From the NCBI RefSeq assembly GCF_000313135.1, contig NW_004457313.1, forward strand, positions 629,878-693,877: a stretch of 64,000 bases of DNA, written 5' to 3'. Source of the stretch: Acanthamoeba castellanii str. Neff (Eukaryota; Discosea; Longamoebia; Acanthamoebidae). The translations under genes and the position numbers were made by a program. The number at the start of each line of letters is the position of its first letter. Position 1 is the first letter of the stretch. The notes under the pieces are model-generated. The model searched no databases and was not told where the DNA came from. It saw nothing but the letters and a program-made list of their open reading frames with translations. Of the stretch, positions 2,688 to 60,509 are shown one piece after another.

Positions 2688-5600
2688 CTCGCGCTCCACC
2701 CGCAGCTTCTCGCGTTCGCGCTGGCGCCGCTCGCGCTCCTTGTCGATCGCCTTCTCCCACTCCTTGTCCCGGTCCTTCCGCCCCTTCGCGCTCTCGCTGC
2801 CGCTCACATCGCCCCGCCACCGCCCGCCACCACCGCCACTGCTGTAGCCGTCGTTGCCTCCTCCGCCGGCGCCGCCGCTGCTGCCGAGGCCGTGTTGCAT
2901 CGAGCCGCCGCTGGGCGGGCTCGCACTGAGGCCTCGCGACGACGACGAATGGAATTGCGACAATGACGATGTCGACGAGAACGACGATGATGAAGAGGGC
3001 GATGATGATGATGATGTTGATGGTGATGACGTGGAGCCACCGGTGAGGTTGCCGCGCTTGGAGTTGGCGCGCGGGGTGAAGAGGAGATTGCGGAGCGAGA
3101 AGCGCGACGGGTCGCCCTTCTGCTGCAGCCGCAGGACGCCGTCGCGCTCGCGCTCCTCGCGCTCCCGCTGGCGGAGCTCGGCCTTGAGGCGCTCCTCGCG
3201 CGCCCGCTCGCGCTCAATCCGCTCCGACTCAATCTCCTTCTCGCGCGCCCGCGCCTTCTCGCGCTCGCGCTGCTCCTTCTCCCGCTCGCGCGCCAGCCGC
3301 TCCTTCTCGCGCGCCTGGCGCTCCGCCTCCGCGCGCAGCTGGCGGCGGCTCCCGCTCTCCTCGACGTCGTCAGAGTTATCGTCGTCATCGTCATCATCGT
3401 CGTCGTCGACACGCTGACGGTGATGTTGGTGTTGATGTTGATGGTGGCGCCGGTAATGATGGTTGTCGCGGTCCTGGTTGTTGTCGATGTCGTCGTCTTC
3501 CTCGGAAAAGGAGTGGGAGTTGGAGGAGTTGGAGGAGAAGGGCGAGGAGGTGATCTGGTACGACACGCCGGCGAAGGAGAGGTCGAGCTTGGTGATGATC
3601 GAATTCTTCTCCGTGCGCGTGTTGATGCTGATGTTCTGCTGGCCCTCTGCACCATCAATTGTCACATTATAAACAGAACGTGTTAGCTCTCTGGCCACAC
3701 GGCACACGGCACACGGACGACCGCACAACCGCACACACATGGATTCGAGCGTAGGTAGGTACCAAGGTTTGTGCGAGATCGCGACTTGATGGAGCCCTTG
3801 GCGAGACTGGATCCGCCCGAGGAGCTGTTCTTGACTCGAATCGTGTTGCTCCTCACCTGTCGCGTTTCACGTGGTTCGATTGTTAGTCGAAAAGAGAGGG
3901 AACGACCCAATAGATGGGACCACGAGAGCTGCGCACCTTGGAGCCGGGCGATGACGTGGCAGCCGAGGAATTGGATGACGCGGATGCTGATGATGCCGAT
4001 GATGATGACGTGGCAGCGCCGCCGCCGCGGTCGATCTTGTCGGGTACGCCCTTGGAGGGGGACGACCAGCTCTTCCGCCGCTTGAGCTGCTTGCCCAGCT
4101 CCCCGCCGCCGCCGCCGCTGGCACCGGTGGTGTGCCCCCGCTGCCGTGACCCGCTGCCGCCGCTCGTCGTCGCATCGCTCTCGTCGCTCGCCCCGCCGCG
4201 CCTTAGGCCGCCGGCGATGACGATCGTGTTGGAAGCGCTCGGCTTGGCCGCCGTCGAGTTGCTGCGCTTGTGGGTCTTCTTCTTAGTGCTCGGCTTCGCC
4301 TTCGACGCCTTTGTTTCCGCCGACGCCGCCGGCGCCGCAGCCGCGCGAGGCGACCGCGATTTGGCCAGGCTGTTGGTGCCAGGGTGCACGGCGAGGCCGG
4401 GCTTCGAACTGGCTGACGCCATGACGGCGCGTCGTCCGCCGGTTTCTTCCACCATCTCATCGTCGTCGTCTTCGTCGTCGCTCGGCGAACTGTCGGTGGC
4501 GTACGCCTTCTCCTTCCGCTTGGCCTTTTCCTTCCTGGCCTTTTCCTTTTCCTTCTTCTTTTCCTTGCCGACCGGCTTCTTCGACTTCTTGTCACCGTTG
4601 CTGTTGCTGTTGTTGTTGTCCTTCTTGTTGTGGCCGTGGTGCACGTCTTGGTGCTGGCGCGGCTTCTTCTTGGACGAGTGGCTTCGCTGAGCTGGATCCA
4701 GTTCGAGCCTGGTCACCCGGTCCCAGTCGCGTTCAAAGTCATCGTCATCGTTTCCGCCCTCTTCGGAGTCGCCTCCGTCGTCGTCGGCGGGGGCCGGGTG
4801 GAGGTCATCCACGGCGCGCTCGTGGGGCGGATCACGCACCGGCGGCCTCTCGCTCGAGTACTCCCGGCTCGATGTCTGCGACGCGTCGAACTTGGCCGAC
4901 GTCGTTCTTTCGCCGCTTTCGCTCTTTTTGTCGCTTTCGCTCTTTGGGTGGTCGACGACGACCGCCACGACCGCGGCGGCCTGGGCCGTGGGCTCCTCTT
5001 TGCTGTCGACAGCGACAACGACGGGCGTGAGCTCCGCAGGCTGACCATCGTTGTTTCGTGTCGACACCGGCGTGTCGGGTGACGTCAGCTGCTCGAGCGC
5101 CGGGGCAGTGGTCGGCTGTGCGAGCTTGGGGGCCACCGCCGCGGGGCTGGTGGTGGTGGCCGACTGATCGTCTTTCTTGGCCTGGGCCTGGGAGCGCTCG
5201 GCGATGAAGGAGAGCGGCACGGCGGGGTGCTGCACGCGCGGCAGGTTGCGCTCGGAGAGGAACAGGCGCCGACGCGCGGCCGCCGCCCCGATTGAGCCGC
5301 CACTCGACGCGGCGTTGGTTGATGACGACGACGATGGCGATGGCGGCGATGAGGTGTCACCTCCGCCGCTGCCCTCCATCGAGGACTTGAGCTCGAACCT
5401 GCGTGCCCCCAAAGAATGCGCACAATGTTCAGGAATCTGCATAGCTTCACATGTCAAGGAATGTGAGGAGGAATGTGGTACCGTGCGCGGAGCTGGGTGA
5501 TGTGGCCCTTGGGGATGCCCAGCTTCTCGCTCGGCAGCGCGCCGGGCGATTTTGGCGTCTCTGTCGTCCCAGCCGCCGCCGCGGCCTTTTCGGCCTGGGC

Positions 5601-8600
5601 ACGCTGGCGGTGCTGCTGGATCTCCTGGATCTGCTGCGGGTTGAGCGTCACGGTCTGCGCCTTGCGGGCGTCTGTGGCGGCCGCGGCCCCGGCGGAGATC
5701 GTAGCGAACTCGCCGCTGCGCTGACCGCTCTTGGCTCGCAGAACCTGCGCGCGGCCGAGCGTGCCCAGAATCTCCCGACGGCTCTTGGCCTTGTCGGGCT
5801 GCGGCGAGGTGCTGACGTCAGCAAGGCCGCCTTCGCCGGTGGTCTCGCTCTCGCTCTCTGTCGCCGACACCGCCGCAAATGTCGACGAGCCTTGGCCGTC
5901 GCCACGGGGCGTCGGCGTCGGTGTCGACACCGGCGTGAACGACTGCGACGACACCGGCGTGAACGACTGCGACGACGATGGCGTCAGTGCTGACGTGGCG
6001 TCGACACCGGTGCCGTGGCCGAGTGGTTGCTGTACCCGCGAAGCCGCCGAAGCCGCCGTTGCCTCCTCGTCCGGCTGCGGAGTCGCCATGGTTGCGGACA
6101 CGCATGTATCACTGTCGACACTTGCGCCAGCCGGCTCCGGTTGGGTCGTGGTCTTGTCCGCGCTGGCACCGGCGCCATCGTCGTTTTCGGTTTCGTTCTT
6201 TTCGACAGCGCTGCCGCCTTCGCGTTCGGCCTTGGCGCGCTCCTCGAGCCCCCAGGCGATCTTGGTGCGTGGACCCATGGGAATGCCGAGCTCCTTGAAC
6301 TGTTCGACCTTCATCAGACGCAGCGCGAGCCAGTCCACCTCCTCCCGGACGAACGCCTCGATGTACTTCTCGAGGCCCAGCGATCGCAGGAACGCGCTCA
6401 CCTGCGCGTCGCCCTCCTTCGCCCCCTGCCTGGGCGAGCGCGGGGTGTCGTCGTCGGCGCCGTCGGGCCGCACGATTCGGTCCTTGGCCCGCACGCGCTT
6501 CTCGCTGCCGCTGTCCTCCCCGCGCCCGCTGCTGCTGCACTCGCGTTCGCTCTTCTCGCTCTCCTCGCTCTGCGACCGCCCGCTGCTCAGCCCCCGCCGT
6601 CGCTTTTCGTTCTTTCCGCCGCTCTTCTTTTTCGGCGTCGTCGTCAGCTCCTTGCTGCTGCTGCTGCTCTCGGCGATCTGCTTCTTGAGGGCCTTCTTCT
6701 CGCTGCGGCTGATCTTGTTCTTGTCTTTGGGCCGGCGGCCCTTGCTGCTGCCTTCGGACCGTGAGTCGTCGTCGCTGGTGGTCGCCGTCATCGGCCGCCG
6801 CGCCTCTTCGCCTTCGCTCTCGGCTCGCCGGTTGGAGGCGCCGGGCGAGGAGAGCGAAGACGGGTCGGCCTCCCCGTCGGAGCGCGTGCGGGGGGTTGTC
6901 GCTTTAGTTGTTTCCTCTTCGCTCTTCGCTTTTTTCTTGGCGACCTTGACCTTGCGCGCTGGGCCGCTCTTCGAGGCCGTGAGCGCCGAGGCCGACGACT
7001 TGGAGAGGAGGCCGTACATGGGCGACGCCAGGGCCGACCGAGGCGACAGCATGGACGACGACGAGCTAGACGACGAGGAGGCCGACGACAACGACGGGCT
7101 GCCGCCCGGCGCACGCCGAATGGCGGAGGGCGAGATCGTGGCGGCGGGAGGGATGTTCTCGAGCGTCATCGATCGCTCGCGGCGCATCGTCTCCACGGTC
7201 TCCTGCGACGCACGCGCGGCCGTCAGCTCGTCGTCGCTCTTCACCATCACCTTCGCCTGTCCCATAGCCGAGTGGTTAGCTTCATTCGTGCACACGACAC
7301 ACGACACGCACGACACACAACACGACACACCTTGCGAGTGACAGGTCGAGCGGTGGAGTCGTCCTGGGACGGGCTGGCGTTGGCCTTGTCGCGAGCCTTG
7401 ATGATGGCCTCGCGCGAGTAGATCATCGACGACGATTTCTTCACCTTCTTCTTCGTTTCCTGCTTCTCCTTCTTCTTCTGCCGCTTCTTCGGGTCGGCCT
7501 CGTCGTCGCCGCCGCCCGGTGCCTGCGGCGACGTTGACGCCGACGCAAAGTACTTCTCCTTCACCGCGCGCACGTCGAGCTTGACCCCGCCGCTCTTGGC
7601 CATCTTGCCCGCGAGGCCGCCAGCGTCGCTTGGCTTGCCCCCGCTTCGCTCTTTGGATGACGCGAAGGAGACGCCCGATGATGAAGATGAAGCGGCGGCG
7701 GCGTAGCTCGACACGGGACGCGCCTTGCGGCCCAGTGACGGCGACGTGGTCGCGCTGGCCTTGGGTGGCGAGGACGACGCGGAAGCGTTGTTGGCGGCCA
7801 TCATCAGCTTCCGCTTCGCTTTCTCTCTTTCGTCGGGCTTGGGCTCGCCGCCGCCGCCGCCAAAGAACGCGAGGCTCCGCTTGGCGCCGCCTTCGCTCTT
7901 TCCCTCCTTGTCCTTCTTCGCTTTCTCTTTCTCTTTCGCGTTCTCGGCGCCGCTTCCTTCGGCGGCGGCAGCCTCCTTCGCTCTTTGGGCGCGGCGTCGC
8001 TTTCGTTCTTCGCGTCGCTTGGTGAGCGGCGAGGCCGAGATGACCAGCAGCGTCTGGCCGCCCTTTGTGCTCTCCTCCCGCAGCAGCCGCCGGAACGAGC
8101 CCGAGAATTTTTTGCTCGTTCCGTCCGCGCCCGCCGCGAAGCCCTGGCGCGCCCAGTCGCTGCTCCCGCTACGCGCCATCGCATCCGCACCACCGACGTC
8201 GCCACCTTCGACCGTCAATCCGGCCGCCTTGCGCAGGGCGCGAAGCGAGATGGCCCGCTCCCTGAGCTCCCGCTCTTCCATCTCCTCCAGCTCCCACCCG
8301 CTCGACGACGACGAGTCGTCGTAGCTGTCCTCGGCGCTGTCGTCGTAGTCCTCCTCCCCTCTGCCTCGACCACCCGCTGCAGCCGTCGCTGCGGCCGCGG
8401 CCGAGCCTTCCTCGCTCTGGCTCTCGCCTCCCCCCTCCCCTCGCGGCCTTCGTTCTTTGGCTTCGTTTCGCTTTCGTTCTTTGGCTTCGCGTTCTCGTCG
8501 CTTTCGCTTTCGTCGGCGTATCTCCTTGCGGCGTCGGTGTCGCTGCCAGCGCTCGCGCTGGTCCCGCTCGTTTTCATCTTCGATCCAACTGCGATCGATG

Positions 8601-46488: not shown

Positions 46489-48385
46489 ATGGAGAGAACG
46501 GAAGAGGTCCCAGCCGAGCTTGCCGAGACCAACGATGAGCGATCTGTCGAGGTCTTCACCGACAGCCCGGCCACGCCACCTGCCAAATCGTACGCGCCCG
46601 CTTCGTTCTTCTGGAATTTCGCTTCTGCCTTGGCGCCGGTTTGCGGCCCCTCCGATTAACGCATGATTTCGTGTAGTGCCTCTTTCGAATCCGAAAATCA
46701 GGAAGTGGTTGAAGCCAAATCGCCGTCTCCATCTTCTTCGGGATCCTACACACCACAGAGCTCTAGGATGTCCGCGTCGTCCGCGTCTCCGTACACAGCT
46801 CGCGTGCGCGACACGGAATCGCCTCACATGGAGGACATGCAGCGACTCCTCACTTTCCAGGCGCGTCAAATCGTGGAACTGGAACGCCAGCTCGCCCAGC
46901 AGGTTCGATCTCCACCTCTCATCTCGGTGTTTTGTTCAAATCGGCCAACACGCCTTTGCGTTTCGCGCGTGCAGCGGCTTCAAATCCGAATCCTCAACTG
47001 GCGAACATCGGGCTACACGGTGCGAGCATTCAAGGGGGAGGTCAACCACGCCGGCCAGGTCTTCGCGCTAAAGCTCAACGAGAAGGGAGACGAAGTCGCC
47101 TCTGGCTCACAGGTGCCCGCTCCCTCAGCCATAAGCACGTCTCTGACAGAAGGCCTTATACAACGCCAGCCAGACTGACCATGACGACTGTTCTACACGG
47201 CGTGTAGGACAAGACCATCCTCGTGTGGAGCGTCAAAGGGGGACGATGCCTTCGTCGTCTGCGAGGACATGCGGCCGGCGTGTACTCTCTGGTACGGTAG
47301 TTGTTCACTCGTGACGCCACCGTCTCTCATCTCTCGCTAAACTCTCGCTGGTGCTCGCCCCCCCCCTCCCTCACGCAGGACGCTCAAGGAGACATGCTGG
47401 CCTCGGGCTCGGCGGACAAGGTGATCCTCACCTGGAAGTTTTCCACCGGCGAATCTCTTCTGGCCTTCAAGGGCCACAAGGGCACCGTGTACGCCGTCAA
47501 GCTCGCTGGTCACCTGCTGGTCTCCGGCTCTGCTGACCGAACGGTCAAGGTACTGCCGCGCGCCCTCCTTCCTCTTCTTCTTCTTCTTCATCTTCTTCCG
47601 TTTGCTCACGGATGCAATCCCTCTGCTAGGTTTGGGACGTTCGGACCGGTGAGCTGCTCAACTCCCTCGAAGGCCACACCGGGTCCATTTCTTCGCTGGC
47701 GATCATTCGTTCTGCGTCCTCCCCCTCCTCTTCGTCTTCATCGTCTTCTTCCTCTGCTCCGAGCCCGATCATCGCCTCGGCCTCCTTCGACAAGACCATC
47801 AAGCTGTGGAATCTCTACACGGGCGAGTGCGTCGGCACGCTGGAGGGTCACACCGACTTTGTCACCTGCGTCCGTGCCGTGGGCGACAGGACGCTGGTCT
47901 CAGCGAGCAACGACAAGACCATCAAGGCACGCCCCCCCACCCAATGCTTCCTCCGGGCTCCACCGAGCTTGCCTTCTTTCTGTCCTGGTGCTCATTCTCG
48001 TTCATTCTTTCTCCGCCTGTCGTGACCTGCAGGTGTGGGATCTCGAGCGACGGGAGTGTGTGCGCACGTTGACCGGCCACACTGAGTGGGTGAATGCGAT
48101 CGCGGTCGAACCAAATGGCCACGTCGTTGTTTCGCTCAGCAAGGACAGGAGCATCAAGGTGCGGACGCCGCCACGCGTGGAGGAGTGTAAGGTCTTTGGG
48201 CCGTCCAGCTTCTAACCAACCAAGTGTGAATGTATGTCCAGGTGTGGCACCTTCCCACCGGCGAGCTGCTGCGCGAGCTCAAAGGGCACCAGGCTTCGAT
48301 CCAGTGCCTCGAGCTTCTGCCCAACGGCATCCTCTCTGCGTCCGACGACGCCGCCATCAAGCTCTGGACCATGCTCTTCTGTTGA
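46489..48385 (+). CDS. WD40-repeat protein with short N-terminal coiled coil
   Basis: The start at 46489 gives MERTEEVPAELAETNDE, then a Ser/Pro-rich head, a short coiled coil (MQRLLTFQARQIVELERQLA), and six or seven WD repeats to the C-terminus: DKTILVWSVKGGRCLRRLRG, DKVILTWKFSTGESLLAFKG, VWDVRTGELLNSLEGHTGSI, DKTIKLWNLYTGECVGTLEG, VWDLERRECVRTLTGHTEWV and VWHLPTGELLRELKGHQ. It resembles TRAF7/FBXW7-type propellers but has no RING, zinc finger or F-box. A Ser-rich insert (47700-47760) lies within one blade. Three successive introns fall at exactly the same place in the blade (Lys|Val-Trp, phase 0). The intron at 47927 starts with GC. Stop TGA at 48383. Confidence 0.88.
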
Positions 48386-48549
48386 GTCAACTCGCCACGT
48401 CACCGACTGCAGGAAATATTTATTTATCTTTTTTCTTCCATTTTCCTTTCGGCGAGCAAGTCTGTGGTGTGCTGAGATCGTTCGCGTAGCGCAAGAGAAA
48501 GAGGAGGTGGTGGCGAACGAATCAAGAGGGCGACTCAACACAGATAAGC

Positions 48550-50532
48550 ATGGCCGAATCAACGGAAGATCCGGCCCTGGGCGTCAAAATCTTTGCCATC
48601 TTCGTCGTGTTTTTTTGCACGATTATTGGCACGTACGTGCTCTGGCTCACATCACCCTACACAAAGCTTTGCCCCTTTCTCTTGTCTTGAATGCTCAGTT
48701 TTCCTCCATCTCCAGCATTCCTCCGTTCATCCTCAGAACGGCTCAGTTGGAGATGACCGAGCAGCGACAACGACTGTTTTCCTGGATGAACTGTCTCGGT
48801 ATGTTATTCGCCGCACCTTGCACGTGCTCTCACTTCTCACTTGATGCTGTGCCGCGCTGCTCTGCTCTCAGGTGGTGGCATATTCCTCGGCTTTGGCTTC
48901 CTGCACATCCTGCCGGAGGCTGCGTACGTCGATGCGCATTCCCTGGTGGAGGCTAAGTAAAGAGAGTGGAGTGGACTAGAGAGTGGAGTGGCCCCAGGTT
49001 GGATTGAGCGAGTGATGTGACTGTCCAGGCACCGTCTCCCCTTTGTGATGCTAACCTCAGCTCCAATCGCGTTTTCTTTTTTCTTGACAGACAGGACTTC
49101 AAAGCCGACACCAATGTACCTCTCCATGACCCAGGCGCTTGCTTTGCTTCCCTGATTGCGACTAATAAGGACTGTGTGCTTCTTCTTCTTCTTCTTCTCT
49201 TTCTTGGTACTCGACAGGGGTTCCCGCTTATTTATTTCCTGGCGCTGTGTGGGTTCATGCTCATCCTGCTCGTGGAGAAGTTCTTCACCTGGCTGAGCGA
49301 GCGAGCCAGCGGCAACAACAAGTTCGAGAAGATCGATGATTCGGAGGAGCTCCAAGATCTTGGTGCTGGCGATCTTGACGACATGGAGGCCGTCGGCGAC
49401 GAGGACGCGCAGGCGATTGTGCTGGACGGCGGCGACGATGGTGACGCTGACGGCGCGGAACTCTCCGTCAATGGCGACGCACCGGCCATTAAGAAAGCGA
49501 AGAAAAAGAAGAAGAAGCACGGAACGACGCACCAGCACGACTCTGCCTCCCATGGCCACTCGCAAGGCCACGGCCACTCGCACGGCCTCCCGTTGAACGT
49601 GGAATCGCCGCTGCTGCCCTACATCCTCACCGTCGGTGCGAACCACATTCCTCCCTCTGCGATGTCAATGCCCATGGCTGCGAGCGCCAACACTCACACG
49701 TGGCGACAACCTGCTGGCAGGTCTCTCCTTCCATTCGTTCTTCGAGGGTATGGCGCTTGCTCTCACCCGCCGCTTCATCACCGCCATCGTCATTCTCATC
49801 GGTACGTCGGCAGTGACGTCACCGCATGCCGCTGGTTCTTGTTTGATTCGAGAATCCTTCTGACTCACTCCAATTTCCTTTCATGTGCGCGCCAGGCCTC
49901 GCGGTGCACAAGTCCGCCGAGACCTTTGCCATCGGGGTCAAGCTCGTCAACACGAACATCAGCAGCCGCAAGTGGGTGTGGCTCATGCTCACCTACTCGG
50001 CCATCACCCCGCTCGGCATCGTGACAGGTACCTCTTACCCTGTCTACCTCCTGCAAATCGAATGGTGCGCCTAGATCTCATGGCTCTACTCGTTACAACA
50101 ATGCGCGTACGTTTGGCCAGGCATCCTGATCGAGAACTCGGTTTCGGCGAGCGCGTTGGAGAGTGTGTCGTCTGTCCTCCAGTCGATCACTGTCGGTACG
50201 AACATCGTCGTAGTCGTCGCCTTTCTTCCCCTTTCTCCCCACTACGCCATCCAGCGTAGAGAAGCTGCTCAACACGTGCGGTCTTTGATCACGCTGCAGG
50301 TACCTTCCTGTACGTCGGCATTCTGGGCACCGTGGTGGAGGAGTTCTCCACGCACAAGGGCATCGTGCCCAAGGCCTGCCTCTTCTTCTTCGGTACGTTC
50401 ACCTTCGCAATCACACTGCACACCTCTCTCCTCACCTCCTACCTATCTAACATGTATACGTGTTTCATGTCAGGCCTGTTGGCGATGGGCCTGCTGAGCA
50501 TGCTGGACCCACCAGCGACCACGGCCAGATGA
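48550..50532 (+). CDS. ZIP-family (SLC39) metal transporter
   Basis: Imports zinc or related metals into the cytosol. The start at 48550 gives MAESTEDPALGVKIF and the first membrane helix (FAIFVVFFCTIIG). Others follow: TIPPFILRT, GGIFLGFGFLHILPEAA, LIYFLALCGFMLILLVEKFF, then a long cytosolic loop with an acidic stretch, a Lys run and a His-rich metal-binding segment (DSASHGHSQGHGHSHGLP). The core transport helices carry LAGLSFHSFFEGMALAL (HSxxEG) and GLAVHKSAETFAIG (HKxxE), the family's binuclear metal site. The C-terminal helices include FLYVGILGTVVEEF. About nine small introns are inferred. It is closest in layout to the ZIP1/2/3 subgroup. The exon around 48870-49130 (TM3 to loop) is the least certain. 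Confidence 0.9.
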
Positions 50533-50862
50533 GTTTTTATTTTTGGTGACGTCAGCATTCTCTACATTCCTGTTAATCTGATAATTAGCAGCAATAATTA
50601 ATTCGATGTTGTTCGAATTGCTGCCTTTGGGCCACCGACACAACCCTCGCGTGCGCTAGTCACCACACCAGCCTCCACTCTCTTCTGCTCGTGCATCTTC
50701 TTTCAACCTCGTATCGTAGCGGCTCTCTTCATCACAACCCATAAGATTTTTGATCTCTTCTTATCTCTATTGTTCTTCTGTAGATTATCACTTCTCAATC
50801 ACAAGGGGTGGACGCGCTGAAAGCACACACCATCGATCAATAACAACAAGCTACAACACAAG
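50533..50862. promoter_or_regulatory. intergenic region with TGACGTCA
   Basis: 330 bp between the ZIP stop and the CRIB-Tudor gene start. A CRE-type palindrome TGACGTCA lies at 50547-50554. The rest is T/C-rich with nothing recognisable. Confidence 0.4.
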
Positions 50863-52498
50863 ATGAACGGATCTGCGGCAGCGGCATCGCCGGCTCTCTT
50901 GGACAAGAAGGCGGCCAAGCTGAAGTATAAGGAGGAGAGGAAGAGGATCAAGGAGAAGGAAAAGGAGATGAAGGAGCAGAAGAAGAAGGAGGCCAAGGAG
51001 GCCAAGAAGCGCGGCAAGGGCTTCGTGGGTGCCTCCATCAGCGGGCCTACCAACTTCTCGCACGACACCCACGTAGGCTGGGACATGGACCACGGCTTCG
51101 AGGTACTCCACGACTCGCTCTACTCTCTTCCTTCCATCTTGGGGGGGTCCTTGCACATTCCATTTTGTGTAGAGAGCGCATCGATGACCATGCTATCTGC
51201 AATCTGAGATTGAGAGCTCTAATGGCGAGTGCAGGTGCGCAACATTCCAGCCGAGTGGAAGCGACTGTTCATGGAGGCGGGCGTCAAAAAGAGCGAGCTC
51301 CAGGTGCGGTCTTGGTGTTGCTTTTCTTTGAAGCTCACTTTCTCCGCCTCTCGCTCTCCACTCACCTGTGCCGCTCTACTCCGCCGCACCTGGCTTTCTT
51401 TTGCGTCACCACCACCTCTACCAGGACCCGGAGACCAGGAAGGCCATCCTCAACGCCGTTCGCCAGTCTGTCTACGGCGCGCCGCCCGCGCCTCCATCCG
51501 GCGGTGCGTGCCTCCACACGTTGGACCCGGCCTCTTCTTCATCGTCTTCCCTTCTCATCGTGATGTGTTCGTTCTCTTCTTGGTTTCTTCTTCTTTTGTT
51601 GGCGTGTGTGCAGTGCTGGGCGTGGCCGGGCCGCCCGCGCCTCCGGCCCNNNNNNNNNNNNNNNNNNNNNNNNNNNNNNNNNNNNNNNNNNNNNNNNNNN
51701 NNNNNNNNNNNNNNNNNNNNNNNNNNNNNNNNNNNNNNNNNNNNNNNNNNNNNNNNNNNNNNNNNNNNNNNNNNNNNNNNNNNNNNNNNNNNNNNNNNNN
51801 NNNNNNNNNNNNNNNNNNNNNNNNNNCCTGGTGCCCCCGCCTCTGCCTCCGCGCGTCGACATCGAGCCCGGCTTCAAGGGCCAGGCCCTGTGGAGCGAAG
51901 ACGGCAACTGGTGCGTCGTCCTGCCGCCACTGACCCACTCTCAGGCCTGAGCGATCCACTCACTCTCTTTCATCAGGTACCAGGCGGTGGTCGACTCCAT
52001 CAGCGATCAGGACGGCGTCAAGTACTACGCGGTCACCTTCACCGAGTACGGCAACCAAGAAACGGTGCGTGCTCCTTTCTCGTGTGTGTGTGTGTGTGTG
52101 TCGATTCGTGTTGTGTGTGTGTGTGTGTTTGTGCGTGTGTGCGTGTGCGTGTTTGAAACTTTAGAGGTTGACGTCGATCCACGACGTAGGTGACGGAGAG
52201 CGGATTGCGAAACGCGGATGGATCGCCGATCGACGGTGGTGGCTCGTCGTCGGCGCCCGGCGCCCCGGCGCCACCGGCCGGCGGAGTCGACCTGGCGGCG
52301 CTGCTGCAGGCCAAGGCCAACGCGCTCAAGACGCCCGATCTCACCAACATGTCCGAACAGCAGGAGGGCAACATCGTGGACGCCATCCAGAACGCGCTCT
52401 CGTCCCGCAGGCAGGGCATGTGCTACTCGGTCTACGGGCAGGACGCCGGCCAGGACGGCTGGGACGATGACGACGACGAGTCCTGGATGGACTTCTAA
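50863..52498 (+). CDS. WASP-like protein with CRIB, Tudor and acidic C-terminus
   Basis: Exons: 50863-51102, 51235-51303, 51425-51503, about 51614 through the gap to 51911, about 51977-52063 and about 52190-52498. The N-terminus is strongly basic (YKEERKRIKEKEKEMKEQKK). A CRIB/PBD follows: ISGPTNFSHDTHVGWDMDHG, FEVRNIPAEWKRLFMEAGV and LQDPETRKAILNAV, as in WASP and PAK, which bind Rac/Cdc42. A Pro-rich stretch (VYGAPPAPPSG, AGPPAPPA) enters an assembly gap. After it comes LVPPPLPPRVDIEPGF and then an SMN-type Tudor domain: ALWSEDGNWYQAVVDSI and FTEYGNQE. The C-terminus has VDLAALLQAKANALK, then IVDAIQNALSSRRQGM (like the WASP central helix), then DDDDDESWMDF, an acidic tail with a Trp as in Arp2/3 activators. 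A canonical WH2 is not clear. The frames on either side of the gap do not match its stated length. Confidence 0.78.
51650..51826. other. assembly gap (177 N)
   Basis: The gap lies inside the proline-rich region of the CRIB-Tudor gene. Upstream and downstream coding frames differ by one step if 177 is the true length, so the gap is mis-sized or contains an intron. Confidence 0.95.
52083..52156. repeat. (GT)n/(GTGTGC)n repeat in CRIB-Tudor intron
   Basis: Two GT-rich runs separated by TCGATTCGTGT, inside the intron following the Tudor exon. Confidence 0.85.
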
Positions 52499-52684
52499 GA
52501 TCGCTTCTGCTGCTCCTTGCATGGCAGCACTACGTCAAGGGAAGAAGTGGAAGTTGGAAGAGAGAAGCAGCATGTCGTCTATCTGCATCAATGTAAAGTG
52601 TACCCCACGGTTTGATATTTTTTATATATTTATGCGGAGTAGATTTCTTTTTCTTTTTTTCTTGTGTAGAGCCACAACAATCAG

Positions 52685-55600
52685 ATGATGTGGTGGGCCA
52701 CCAACAGCATGCGGCGGCCATACATCGCGAGTTGGACGGTGCTTGCGTGCCTTGTGCTCGCTGCCTGCACCACTTCCACTGCCGATGAGGCCTCCAGATC
52801 ATCTTTCCTTTACACAAGGGTAGCAGCCCCTTAGAAGTTTCTTTACACCAAATGCAAAAAATAATCAGGCCGCACACTCATCCTCTGGCATCTCGCCCAC
52901 ACAGGAGCCGATAGCGGTCGATCTCAGAATCAACGTGGTGCTGGTGGGGCTGAACGGCGACGGGGCCTTCACCTACAAGCTCCCAGAGTCGCGGCTGGCC
53001 TCGCTGCTCGCGACAGCACTGCCCACCTACCGCCCGTCGCTGGTGGAGGAGGAAAGGCCGCTCAATGTGGAGTACACCCTGCGATACGATGTGCACCACC
53101 AGCACAACATAGGCACCTTCACCAAGATGCTCGGCGAGGAGCTCAGCAAGCTCGGGCCTGTACGTTGCGACACTCACCACACAACACACTCACTTGTCGC
53201 GCGCTTTACTCATCACACCCACTGTCGCACACGATCCAGCCGGACAGAGGCGCGACGCTGACGGACTACGCGGTTCCCCCGAGCGCACTGCAAGCGTGGC
53301 AGTCCTACTTTGACTCCATCACCGTCGCGGTACGCAGTGCACACTTTTTCGTTTATGTTCTTCTGTGCTTTGCTTGGTGTCCACATTGTGTCACAGCACT
53401 TTCAAACGGTGGTGGTTGGGTGGTGGCTGGTGGCTGGTGGCTGGTGGTGAACATCAGGACGAGTACAGCATCATTCTGCTCAATCCGTGTAAGCGCGCGT
53501 TGGAAAACGCGAGGACGGGTGCTGAGGGCACCACTGTCGAGCCCCGGTGGCAGTACCACTACAACTACGACGGAGCCCCCACCCAAGGTAATGACACACA
53601 CACACAACGACATGCCAGATCACACACACATACACACACACACCACAACACGGGCTTTACCGCACCCTCGCGGCTAACACCCAACGACGAACAACTTATG
53701 AGAGGTCACCAATGGGCTGACACACTTGATCTATTCATCTATTTCTTCTCCAGCGTGGGTGTCCGAGGGCCGCTACACGGTGGTGGATCTGAGCGCTGGG
53801 CCGGTGGTCTACGGACCCTCGGACGTGGGCGAGGGAGCAGTCACGGCCGGTACGTACCCGTTACCCCTTCATACCAACCAATCAATCGCTGGAGTGTGCG
53901 TTCGCACTCCGTTGCGTGCTTGCTTGCCTACTGACCGCCTCGTCGATCAGCCTCCTTGCCTCGCCTTGGGAAGTTCCACAACAAACTGAGGACGCTGGGC
54001 CAAAACAGACTCTACGAGCGCTACACCGTACATTACCCCCCCACCTCTCTCTTCCAATCATCCTCGCGCCCGCGGGCACGTGGTTGTAGCCTCCTCCCCT
54101 CCTCCCCACCACATGTGGCGGCTCATCGGCGCCCTGGCCTGGTGAGCAGGTGAGCGATTTCGCCGAGATCGAAGCCCACATCGCCACGACCGTGATCTCG
54201 GCCATCCAGCACGTCTTTGTGCCCGACATCCGGTTCCCTGCCGTCCAAGCCGACAAGGTACGCCTCTGGGGCAAGCTTGATGGGGGGGGGTAAGGCCTGT
54301 TTGGCATTCCGCTCATGCTCATCTTTCACCGGTCGACGTGCACGTACCACTTAGGTCTTGGTCCCGATCGTCGTGCTACGGAACCACGTCGAGTTCAATC
54401 CGTGGCGCAAGGGCCACCCGTATTCGATCGACATCGACGCCATCAGGAGGGAGGTGGCCAAGCTGGCTCTGCCTAACCAGGAGGTGACGATCGTGACCGA
54501 CCTGCACGGCCTGCACGAGCACAAGCACATCGCCCTCGCCCTCGCCAAGGCCCACAAGACCGACACCGTCCACGAGCTCAACGTGTGGGGCCGTTATGAC
54601 GTACGTCTGCAACTGACCGATGCAAATTCATGGGATTCTCTCCCGTGCACGGCTTGGCTCACCCGATGTGATGATGGTGTCTTTCTTACCCGACGCGTAA
54701 ACAGGCGAAGGAGAAGCCCTACATCGACGGTCGCGCGCTGCTGCAGCAGATGAAGGACGCGCAGGACATCATCACCTCCGGGTTCCTTCAGTCGGCCGAA
54801 GAGCGCGCTCATCTGTCCGCCTTCTTCTCTCGGTACGCCGCACCTCTCCCCCTGCGCGGTTCGTAGTTCGCTCACCACGCACCGCTGGGCTTGATGGGGT
54901 TAACACATAGGTCGCAGCCAGCGGCCCAGGCCTCGGCCTCGGATTCGCAGAAGGCGTCGCGTCCGCTGGGCACCCGCATCCTGCCCGTCTACGTTTTCTC
55001 CCTCCTGCTTTCTCCTCACCTCCAGAACTCTCTGCTCGACCGCAGCTCTCTATACACTGCGTGCGTACCCCACACCACCGCACTCCACTGCACACAGCAA
55101 CTGCTGATATCGCGAGATTCTTTCTCTGCGATGCAGGTCGGCCGAGGGCGTGATTGTGCTGCAAACGAATTCGACGGAGGTGCCGGTGCCCTACTTTGCC
55201 CAGGACTCGCCCGTGTTGGTCCACCCGAACGACCCCACGCGGTACATCATCGCCGGCATCGCCACTGCCCTGGGTGCCCTCAACACGCCCCTCCAGCGCT
55301 ACTCCCCCCTTCACTCGCGCGTCTTGCAGTCCCACATGTGGGCCAACGGGTACGCCCCCCCCCCAACTCATCCCACTGGCTGACCAGTGAACTAAAACAA
55401 AAATGCGCGACTGGTGGACGGGCAGACATCACCCGTTCGGGCCGTACGCCACGACGACGGGCATTTCGCGGGTGTTCGTGGACATGGTGACCAGGAATGC
55501 CGTGCTGTCGCGCTTGGACCAGGCCCTCAAGAAGATCCACAAGTCCATCGCCGACGTCGACCGGTTCGCCAAGGTAAGACTTGTAGAGGGCGGTCAGGAC

Positions 55601-56540: not shown

Positions 56541-57125
56541 TTAATCGGGCTCCCCACTCCCCCAAACCTCTCTCTCGCCAGTTCTTATTTATTGACGTTT
56601 CTACTCAGCCCGTCATTCTCTCTCTGCTCCGCCAGAAGTCGGTTGTGCTGGTGATCACTCACAAGCTGCTTGGTTTGTAAGTCGGTTCGTTTATTGGGCC
56701 TAACGAACCGGGTGGACAAGGAGCGTTGTGTGGTGTGATTGGTGGGTGGCGGTGGAGATGCAGCGAATGGGTCAGCCGAGGCCCTCTTCCGTGGAAGTTT
56801 GTAGCTACGGCTTCATGCGCGCCGCATCGTCCAGCCGGCCGCTTGATGTCGCGACCAACGCCCCGAGGAGAGCGCGCTGGCCGGCACATCAATGATGTGA
56901 GGAGGACGATGATGTGGTGTTGTGAGCTCACAACCACCTAGACGGGGCCACGCCGCCTGCCCTCTTCTCCAGGTTGAAGAAGAGGATCGGCGACGGCGCA
57001 GCCCCTCCTCACCCGCCCCAAGGCAGCTCGGGAGTAGAAAGAAGAGAGAAAGAGAAAGAGAAAGAGCGAAAAAAGAGAGAGAAGAGCTGCCGTTGGGGGA
57101 GGGTGAGAGGGCGGTGGTTGTGGGC
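56541..57125 (-). other. 3' flank shared by convergent genes; SELENOS 3'UTR
   Basis: 585 bp between the stop of the type I membrane protein (+) and the TAA of SELENOS (-). No coding region seen. It holds the SECIS element at 56757-56828, described separately, and a pyrimidine-rich stretch (minus strand) at about 57025-57085. Confidence 0.7.
56757..56828 (-). promoter_or_regulatory. SECIS element (form 2) in the SELENOS 3'UTR
   Basis: On the minus strand this folds by hand as follows. Helix I: GATGCGGCG (56828-56820) with CGCTGCATC (56765-56757), nine pairs including one G-U. Internal loop: CGC against CCCATT. SECIS core: ATGA (56816-56813) opposite GA (56773-56772). Helix II starts GCCG/CGGC and continues with two mismatches, then G-C, C-G and U-G pairs. 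Twelve nt after ATGA comes the apical AAA (56800-56798), followed by a mini-hairpin CTTC-CACG-GAAG, the mark of form 2. It lies about 300 nt downstream of the recoded TGA on the same strand. Core identity, helix II length and the AA position all agree with eukaryotic SECIS rules. Folding energy was not computed. Confidence 0.85.
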
Positions 57126-57840
57126 TTAACCTCATCCGCCGGTGTTGCAGGCCGGGGCCTTGAAGAAGCGAACGTTGCGACCTCCGCCACCGCCACCGCT
57201 GCTGCTCGACCACGGCGACAGTGGATAGTCGTCCGCTGCACAGAGTCACGCACACATGCACACACGCAAGTACACAGTCAGACGAACACGTTCACTTCCT
57301 TTGGCGCGCTTTGGCGGGAGATAGACGCGTACTGTTGGGGCGAAGCTTTTGGGGCTTCTTCTTGGGCTTGAGCTTCTCCTGTTCTTTGGCCTCCTTGGAG
57401 GCCTCCTTCAACCGCTCCTGCTGCGCCAACCGGGCCAAACGCAGCCCCTCTTCATTATCGGCCTCTGTTGGGTGCAGACGAGACACGTGCGTCAGGTCTT
57501 GGTGGCTTCTCGCCATCTTCTGCAGCCCATCTTTATTCAACGTAGAACAGACGCGGGGGGGGGTTGCAACGTACCAGGGATGCGAGGTGCCGGGTACACA
57601 ATTTGGTTGCGGTAGTCGATGAGGGCCTGCCGCACGTGTGGCCAGGCGATTACCAGTACCACCACCACGAACAGAGCCACCCACAGGAAGGCCTGATGTG
57701 CAAACAGCGTGCATCAATCAATTAATGATGAGCATTGAAGACATCAAGAAAGGTCGAGAAATGAAACGTACATAGTTTTGGGTGACGAATTGGTGCACCG
57801 TTTGGGTGGTGCTGGTCACCAGACCACCAGGGTCATTCAT
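57126..57840 (-). CDS. SELENOS: selenoprotein S (VIMP), with in-frame TGA as selenocysteine
   Basis: ER membrane protein that recruits p97/VCP to Derlin complexes in ER-associated degradation. Four minus-strand exons: 57772-57840, 57575-57692, 57333-57464 and 57126-57235, total 429 nt, in frame. The protein has 142 residues (human has 189). A short lumenal N-terminus (MNDPGGLVTSTTQTVHQFV) leads to a membrane helix at about residues 24-40 (AFLWVALFVVVVLVIAW). An amphipathic coiled coil follows (EGLRLARLAQQERLKEASKE, then KEQEKLKPKKKPQK), as in the VCP-binding region. The tail is Ser/Gly-rich (DYPLSPWSSSSGGGGGG), then KAPACNTGG-Sec-Gly and TAA. The TGA at 57134-57132 stands exactly where animal SELENOS has its GGUG terminus. 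Cys136 could be the redox partner of Sec141 (inference). A SECIS element lies downstream. A standard gene call would stop at TGA and lose Sec. Confidence 0.9.
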
Positions 57841-57880
57841 CTTTTTGTGGCTTCCTTCTCGCTTGTTGCCTTTCTTTCTT

Positions 57881-57896
57881 AGGGTGACGTCACCCT
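57881..57896. promoter_or_regulatory. 16-bp palindrome with CRE core between SELENOS and START genes
   Basis: AGGGTGACGTCACCCT is a perfect palindrome with TGACGTCA at its centre. It sits in the 91-bp gap between the SELENOS start (57840, -) and the START gene start (57932, +), 40 bp from each. A bZIP-binding site serving both genes is likely (inference). Confidence 0.6.
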
Positions 57897-57931
57897 AAAA
57901 TCAAAAGAAAAGGCGGAAAGAAGCAGAGAAA

Positions 57932-59828: not shown

Positions 59829-60509
59829 ATGGTACCCCTCCTCACTCACTCTCTGCGGCGCAGGACACGTGGTTGTTCGTTACGTTTGTTTTGTTGGTTC
59901 TAATTATGGGCGAAATGTGGTTAGGGCGACAAATTGGATGACGAGATGGTGGACGAGATCAAGCAGGCCTTCGCCAAGTTTGACAAGGACAAAGACGGGC
60001 GTGTGAACGCGCTCGAGCTGGGCAAGATCATGCGCGAGATGGGCCACAACCCCACCTACGGCGAGCTGGAAACCATGATCAAGGAAAACGGAGGTAGGCT
60101 TGGCCACCCCTCTTTATTTTTATTTTTATTTATTTATTCTTACAAACAAACATTTAACTTCATAATCAATAAATAGCGCTTCCTAATCAAATTTATTTGT
60201 ATTTATTTATTAAATATTCTATTGCTGCCAGGCGGCGGAGTGATGGACGTGAACGGCTTCCTGGGCATGGTGGCCAAGAACTACTCCTCGGTCGACAACG
60301 AGCGCGACCTCATCGAGGCCTTCCAGGTGTTCGACAAGGACGGCAAGGGGTTCATCTCCGTCATGGAGCTGCGGAGCATCCTGTGCAACATGGGCGAGAA
60401 GCTCACCGACCAGGAGGTCGAGGAGATGCTCCGCAATGCCTGCATCCAGGGCGATGGCAACGTCGACTACACCGCCTTCGTGCGCCACATGCTCGCCCGC
60501 GACCAGTGA
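59829..60509 (+). CDS. calmodulin-like EF-hand protein
   Basis: Three exons: 59829-59831 (ATG alone), 59935-60093 and 60232-60509. Joined, they begin M|GDKLDDEMVDEIKQAF, aligning with the calmodulin N-terminus. EF-hand 1 is DKDKDGRVNALE. EF-hand 2 is degenerate (IKENGGGVMDVNGF, missing acidic positions). EF-hand 3 is DKDGKGFISVME, complete. EF-hand 4 (IQGDGNVDYTAF) lacks the first Asp. So perhaps two sites bind calcium strongly. The length, about 146 residues, is that of calmodulin, but the sequence is diverged; a myosin light chain is the other possibility. An intron directly after the start codon is also found in animal calmodulin genes. Intron 2 is strikingly AT-rich compared with all others in the window. 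Confidence 0.88.

Follow-up and report, generated by a model that had tools for sequence, protein, structure and literature searches.

Overall, our analysis of a 64,000-nucleotide stretch of Acanthamoeba castellanii DNA (hereafter the window) points to a selenoprotein gene in which an in-frame UGA would be decoded as selenocysteine (Sec) through a downstream SECIS element, and which is most likely a divergent orthologue of selenoprotein S (SELENOS, also known as VIMP). We put the probability of this reading as a whole at roughly 0.75. That the gene encodes a selenoprotein is, in our judgement, very probable; once this is granted, the sequence comparisons make SELENOS the probable label, held with somewhat less assurance.

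Gene structure and coding end

The four minus-strand exons (57840-57126; Table 1) join to 429 nt in frame and give a conceptual protein of 142 residues, MNDPGG...RFFKAPACNTGG-Sec-G-stop. Each of the three introns starts with GT and ends with AG. Exon 4 ends with GGC GGA TGA GGT TAA, and the end of the protein would read Cys-Asn-Thr-Gly-Gly-Sec-Gly-stop. An in-frame UGA followed by a sense codon (GGT) and then by the stop codon TAA is the arrangement expected of a selenoprotein. Hydropathy analysis gave a single strongly hydrophobic stretch, at about residues 23-43.

An earlier sequence-only reading of this DNA had proposed these exon coordinates, the in-frame total and the terminal codons, and all of them were correct when we re-read the sequence. 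It had also placed a Cys five residues before the Sec, which is right, the distance from Cys136 to Sec141 being five residues. Its further claim that the TGA-GGT-TAA context is improbable by chance agrees with our counts: the pattern GGNGGNTGAGGNTAA has a single occurrence in the window when both strands are counted, and none of 100 dinucleotide shuffles contains it.

Table 1. Positions in the window of the coding exons, the proposed Sec codon and the flanking elements.
Feature	Position	Strand	Remarks
Perfect 20-bp palindrome TTAGGGTGACGTCACCCTAA, TGACGTCA core	57879..57898		39-58 nt upstream of the start codon
Exon 1	57772..57840	-	69 nt; start codon at 57840; short N-terminal segment; junction spliced in P0001
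Exon 2	57575..57692	-	118 nt; predicted transmembrane helix and first cytosolic helix; junction spliced in P0001
Exon 3	57333..57464	-	132 nt; predicted second helix (aligns with the SELENOS p97-binding helix), then a basic stretch
Exon 4	57126..57235	-	110 nt; Gly-rich tail, Cys136, proposed Sec141, Gly142, TAA
TGA codon, proposed Sec (residue 141)	57132..57134	-	in-frame reading; rarity of the pattern against shuffles
SECIS-like element	56760..56825	-	helix I, AUGA at 56816-56813, helix II, AAA apical loop with mini-stem, UGA on the 3' side
AATAAA, possible poly(A) signal	56690..56695	-	3' of the SECIS-like element; a second AATAAA starts at 56593

SECIS-like element in the 3' flank

A SECIS-like element, absent from the sequence-only reading, starts roughly 300 nt beyond the TAA, ahead of an AATAAA. 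The Rfam model SECIS_1 (RF00031) aligns over its full length with positions 56825-56760, where AUGA, AAA and UGA are all present. The score was 20.2 bits (the Rfam cut-off is 35). Over 4227 families, the E value was 3.2 when 6 kb were searched and 0.31 when the search was confined to the 572-nt flank; divided by the number of families, the latter comes to about 7e-5 for the SECIS family alone. This place was not among the results of a genome-wide RF00031 search, and below-cut-off matches to the model also arose in 4 of 14 prokaryote genomes used as controls. Therefore, the 20.2-bit score alone proves little, and our case for the candidate rests on score, place and fold together.

In the predicted fold of a 76-nt stretch, helix I (9 pairs) is followed by an internal loop and helix II, and the apical loop carries a mini-stem. 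The z-score of this fold is -3.24, and 3 of 200 shuffles were as stable. We also searched with a SECIS descriptor requiring AUGA, an unpaired AA preceded by a helix II of 7 or more pairs, and a closing UGA; the candidate was its sole match on both strands of the 64-kb window, with a descriptor that was composed when the candidate was already known and run with one parameter set. Over 31 loci (102 kb, both strands), the descriptor gave three matches, including the SECIS of a SELENOW-like gene in locus L001, and two of the three presumably arose by chance. Twenty shuffled 64-kb strands contained eight. These counts correspond to a chance rate of about 0.4 to 0.6% of 600-nt flanks. The core letters, the fold and the position of the candidate are those expected of a SECIS, with a score under the Rfam cut-off.

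Selenocysteine machinery and other selenoprotein genes in the genome

Judged by its gene content, the A. castellanii genome uses selenocysteine, since both a tRNA-Sec and a SepSecS-like gene were found. The tRNA-Sec scored 72.2 bits on contig C79, the sole one of 14 matches above the cut-off of 47, and ARAGORN also called a tRNA-Sec with the anticodon TCA; among the 14 control genomes, the tRNA-Sec model exceeded its cut-off in five. The SepSecS-like gene appeared as eight matches on contig C242, together covering model positions 8-388, and the SepSecS model exceeded its cut-off in three of the 14 controls. All 20 matches to the SelB-type family TIGR00475 lay below the family cut-off and may represent other elongation factors. 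One report (PMC4561486) describes a NifS-SPS fusion in A. castellanii, together with further SPS2 candidates. A profilin encoded in the present genome agrees at 125 of 125 residues with PDB 1f2k, the profilin II of A. castellanii.

The genome-wide RF00031 search returned one match, of 28.3 bits and also below the cut-off, which lies just 3' of the SELENOW-like gene (L001 1501-2000, minus strand). The CxxU motif of this gene is split; joined by eye, the protein reads MKVLVEYCNAUGRYAFF... and scores 31.6 bits against Pfam Rdx, whose cut-off is 22.6. From its sequence, this gene is likely SELENOW, a further selenoprotein, and it serves as an internal positive control. A six-frame Rdx search of the genome did not find it, presumably because of its short exons.

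Candidates for two other selenoproteins were rejected. SELENOK is a small single-pass membrane selenoprotein with Sec near its C-terminus; it is shorter than the Acanthamoeba protein and lacks the two-helix cytosolic part. Five matches to its Pfam family, PF10961, were found in the genome, all of them sub-threshold. The translations of one of these places, L010, held no SELENOK-like reading, and three of the five (L010, L013 and L014) gave no SECIS up to E 10. TrxR-L is a thioredoxin reductase, with a fold unrelated to that of the SELENOS candidate. The matches to TIGR01438 turned out to be two genes with ordinary ends (L029, ...MRTKRE-stop; L028, ...DDIRYK-stop), and neither locus gave a SECIS up to E 10. 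The pattern Gly-Cys-Sec-Gly-stop occurred at one place, antisense in what appears by eye to be an exon of a phospholipase-C-like gene, and the reversed control also gave one match. TrxR-L was not located in this genome by TIGR01438 and this pattern.

Relatives of the protein

We sought relatives in 5.8 billion proteins; a sequence search gave 4 with E values up to 1 (29 candidates), and a profile search gave 10 with E values up to 10 (1594 candidates). P0001, a protein of 140 residues from a JGI contig, is 96% identical over 99% of the query. Its exon joins coincide exactly with the three predicted junctions, which confirms the predicted splice pattern, and its last residue is Gly140, encoded immediately before the TGA. 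P0125 (166 residues, 57% identical) ends ...RFFRAPACNPGG, that is, with the residue preceding the UGA position. Both are known as protein sequences only, in which the stop codons are not visible. PAC-N-x-GG is conserved in the two tails, so that the Cys and the GG are kept.

P0002, P0003, P0126-P0128 and P0130 are partial readings of the same gene in relatives, partly through introns, and P0129, which comes without an outside source, looks like a translation of exon 1 of the window that continues into the intron. As a separate observation, intron 2 is open in frame in one relative, P0002 running from exon 2 into exon 3; in the window, the frames leaving exon 2 are blocked. P0004 is 63% identical over 38% of the query and crosses intron 3 into the last exon in another frame. 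When its segment PATLAGEVN is back-translated and read in the coding frame, the codons are NGC NAC N[CT]T NGC NGG NGA RGT NAA. These codons allow Cys-Asn-x-Gly-Gly-UGA-Gly-UAA and are thereby compatible with a conserved Sec-Gly-stop, of which they are not proof. The relatives found in viral contigs came down to one 16-residue match, which we took as chance, and prokaryote contigs yielded none.

Comparison with SELENOS

For the comparison, 12 vertebrate SELENOS rows were chosen among the 120 listed of 467 matches. By hhalign, the amoebal set aligned with these rows at 82% (E 1.1e-5; residues 26-86), or at 79% with P0125 included, and the aligned region extends from the membrane helix through the p97-binding helix. 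The window protein alone reached 85.7% with a score of 40.6, compared with a maximum of 35.4 among 150 within-segment shuffles, none of which scored as high. Global alignment to vertebrate SELENOS was equalled by 6 of 1000 segment shuffles. In addition, the tail CNTGG-Sec-G has the proposed penultimate Sec after Gly-Gly together with a tail Cys, as in SELENOS.

Pfam PF06936 (Selenoprotein_S) was not matched up to E 10 by the window protein, P0001 or P0125; a six-frame PF06936 search returned nothing in the genome and was likewise empty in the 14 control genomes. SELENOK (PF10961) was not among the families matched up to E 10 by the window protein, and searches of solved structures by sequence returned no SELENOS chain, one giving four unrelated weak matches and another none. 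The VCP-interacting motif (VIM) is defined as RX5AAX2R in the account of PMC5725882. In the form RX5AAX2R/K, with R or K as the last residue, it occurs in 6 of the 12 vertebrate rows and in neither the window protein nor P0125. Because PF06936 was unmatched and the canonical VIM is absent, SELENOS orthology is probable and not proven.

An AlphaFold2 model of P0001 with P0125, which is weak (two sequences, mean pLDDT 66, pTM 0.27), predicts helices at residues 5-21, 23-55 and 66-92, a Pro-containing break between the last two, and a tail without regular structure. Like vertebrate SELENOS/VIMP, the predicted Acanthamoeba protein would cross the membrane with a single helix close to its N-terminus, continue into a pair of cytosolic helices separated by a Pro-containing break, and end in a Gly-rich tail with one Cys and a penultimate Sec after Gly-Gly. 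At the level of the mRNA, the SECIS in the 3' UTR of vertebrate SELENOS has its counterpart in the SECIS-like element of the Acanthamoeba gene. VIMP is described as bent, with two cytosolic helices and an elbow at V70-P72 (PMC5725882), and its C-terminal region as disordered (PMC3628699).

However, the two proteins also differ. The Acanthamoeba protein has 142 residues, compared with 189 in SELENOS. It has no WRPGRR segment, which all 12 aligned vertebrate rows share unchanged, and neither a PF06936 match nor RX5AAX2R/K. Its Cys-Sec spacing is 5, whereas that of human SELENOS, with Cys174 and Sec188 as given in PMC3628699, is 14. The assertion of the sequence-only reading that the gene carries the exact terminus of animal SELENOS stands for Gly-Gly-Sec-Gly only. 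Its SELENOS label is favoured by the profile comparison and the architecture, but not by PF06936 or the VIM.

Upstream palindrome and its surroundings

The palindrome TTAGGGTGACGTCACCCTAA upstream of the start codon is a possible promoter control site for a bZIP factor (CRE/UPR-like), to judge from its letters. The 18 bases at its centre are unique in the 38.4-Mb genome. P0130 reads ...GGDVTPK...QKMNDPGG, and its codons allow the TGACGTCA core at a similar distance. Within the window, TGACGTCA is found seven times (5080, 5813, 18738, 22884, 49814, 50547 and 57885) against 1.64 expected, and 0 of 100 shuffles reach seven. The pairs 5080/5813 and 49814/50547 are both 733 bases apart; blastn of 3001-8500 against 47501-53500 found no similarity. 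Elsewhere in the neighbourhood, residues read by eye at 59925-60509 on the plus strand suggest an EF-hand, calmodulin-like protein with two or more exons.

Discussion

We provide a putative model for the product of this gene. In the 3' UTR, the SECIS element some 300 nt downstream would direct tRNA-Sec to read the UGA at codon 141 of 142 as Sec. A single membrane helix (about residues 23-43) would anchor the protein, probably in the ER, leaving a short N-terminus and placing two helices and a disordered Gly-rich tail in the cytosol. Cys136 and Sec141 may form a selenylsulfide pair and act as a reductase of, or a redox switch at, the membrane, and the protein may contribute to protein quality control in the ER. 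For human SelS, a selenylsulfide reductase or redox role is proposed in PMC3628699. Recruitment of p97 by the Acanthamoeba protein is uncertain because the canonical VIM is missing.

If the TGA were an ordinary stop, GGT TAA and the SECIS-like fold would both stand there by chance. Such a reading would fit the SECIS score below the cut-off and the database relatives that end one residue before the TGA. However, true vertebrate SELENOS entries likewise end in GG (12 of the 12 aligned rows), GGNGGNTGAGGNTAA was not produced by any of the 100 shuffles, the SECIS core, fold and position coincide, and the genome holds the Sec machinery. We consider an ordinary stop very unlikely, and the Sec recoding proposed by the sequence-only reading is supported by the 3' element, the Sec machinery genes and the two relatives that keep the tail. 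The reported TrxR-L of A. castellanii offers a parallel, as it ends UGA GGT UAA with a SECIS 282-355 nt downstream (PMC8038987); the end is the same as that of the SELENOS candidate, and the SECIS placement is nearly the same. The SECIS of TrxR-L is given there as type 1, whereas the present element, in our own reading of the fold, resembles type 2 in carrying an apical mini-stem.

A selenoprotein other than SELENOS would be easier to reconcile with the lack of a match to PF06936 or PF10961, the absent canonical VIM, the modest global alignment to vertebrate SELENOS and the different spacing of the Cys partner. The gene would then encode another SELENOK/SELENOS-like single-pass membrane protein, whose Gly-Gly-Sec-Gly end arose independently. 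We regard this as unlikely, because hhalign aligns the membrane helix through to the p97-binding helix at a score that no shuffle reached, and the predicted two-helix layout with an unstructured tail fits SELENOS. With a divergent SELENOS as the preferred reading, one refinement is compatible with it: recoding may be inefficient or conditional, with Gly140 as the last residue of most of the protein made and the Sec form as a minor, regulated product. In PMC3628699, the human SelS SECIS is reported to be among the weakest, and a transcript variant is described without an identifiable SECIS; the Acanthamoeba element scores 20.2 bits, compared with 28.3 for the SELENOW-like one. However, a covariance-model score does not measure activity, and we see such regulation as possible rather than likely.

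Among the organisms with described SELENOS selenoproteins are vertebrates and Ostreococcus. The SelS of Ostreococcus, also a unicellular eukaryote, is likened to the present case by its entry in a survey (PMC2375036). The table of this 2007 survey gives no SelS for Dictyostelium, the amoebozoan analysed there. Among the titles and abstract openings returned by our searches of open-licence literature, none dealt with SELENOS in Acanthamoeba or other Amoebozoa. The present case would extend SELENOS to Amoebozoa.

We speculate, with considerable doubt, that Amoebozoa keep an ancient SELENOS that serves as an ER redox anchor, with a close Cys-x4-Sec pair and without the canonical p97 motif; the selenium redox site, and not p97 recruitment of the VIM type, would then be the function that is ancestral to the family and conserved in it. 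The gene would add a probable selenoprotein to a medically relevant genus in which TrxR-L is the studied one and the SELENOW-like gene is likely a further one. It also provides a concrete case of predicted proteins that would be missing the last two residues of a selenoprotein. Finally, a SELENOS without the canonical VIM would allow one to ask which is ancestral in this family, the redox tail or the link to p97.
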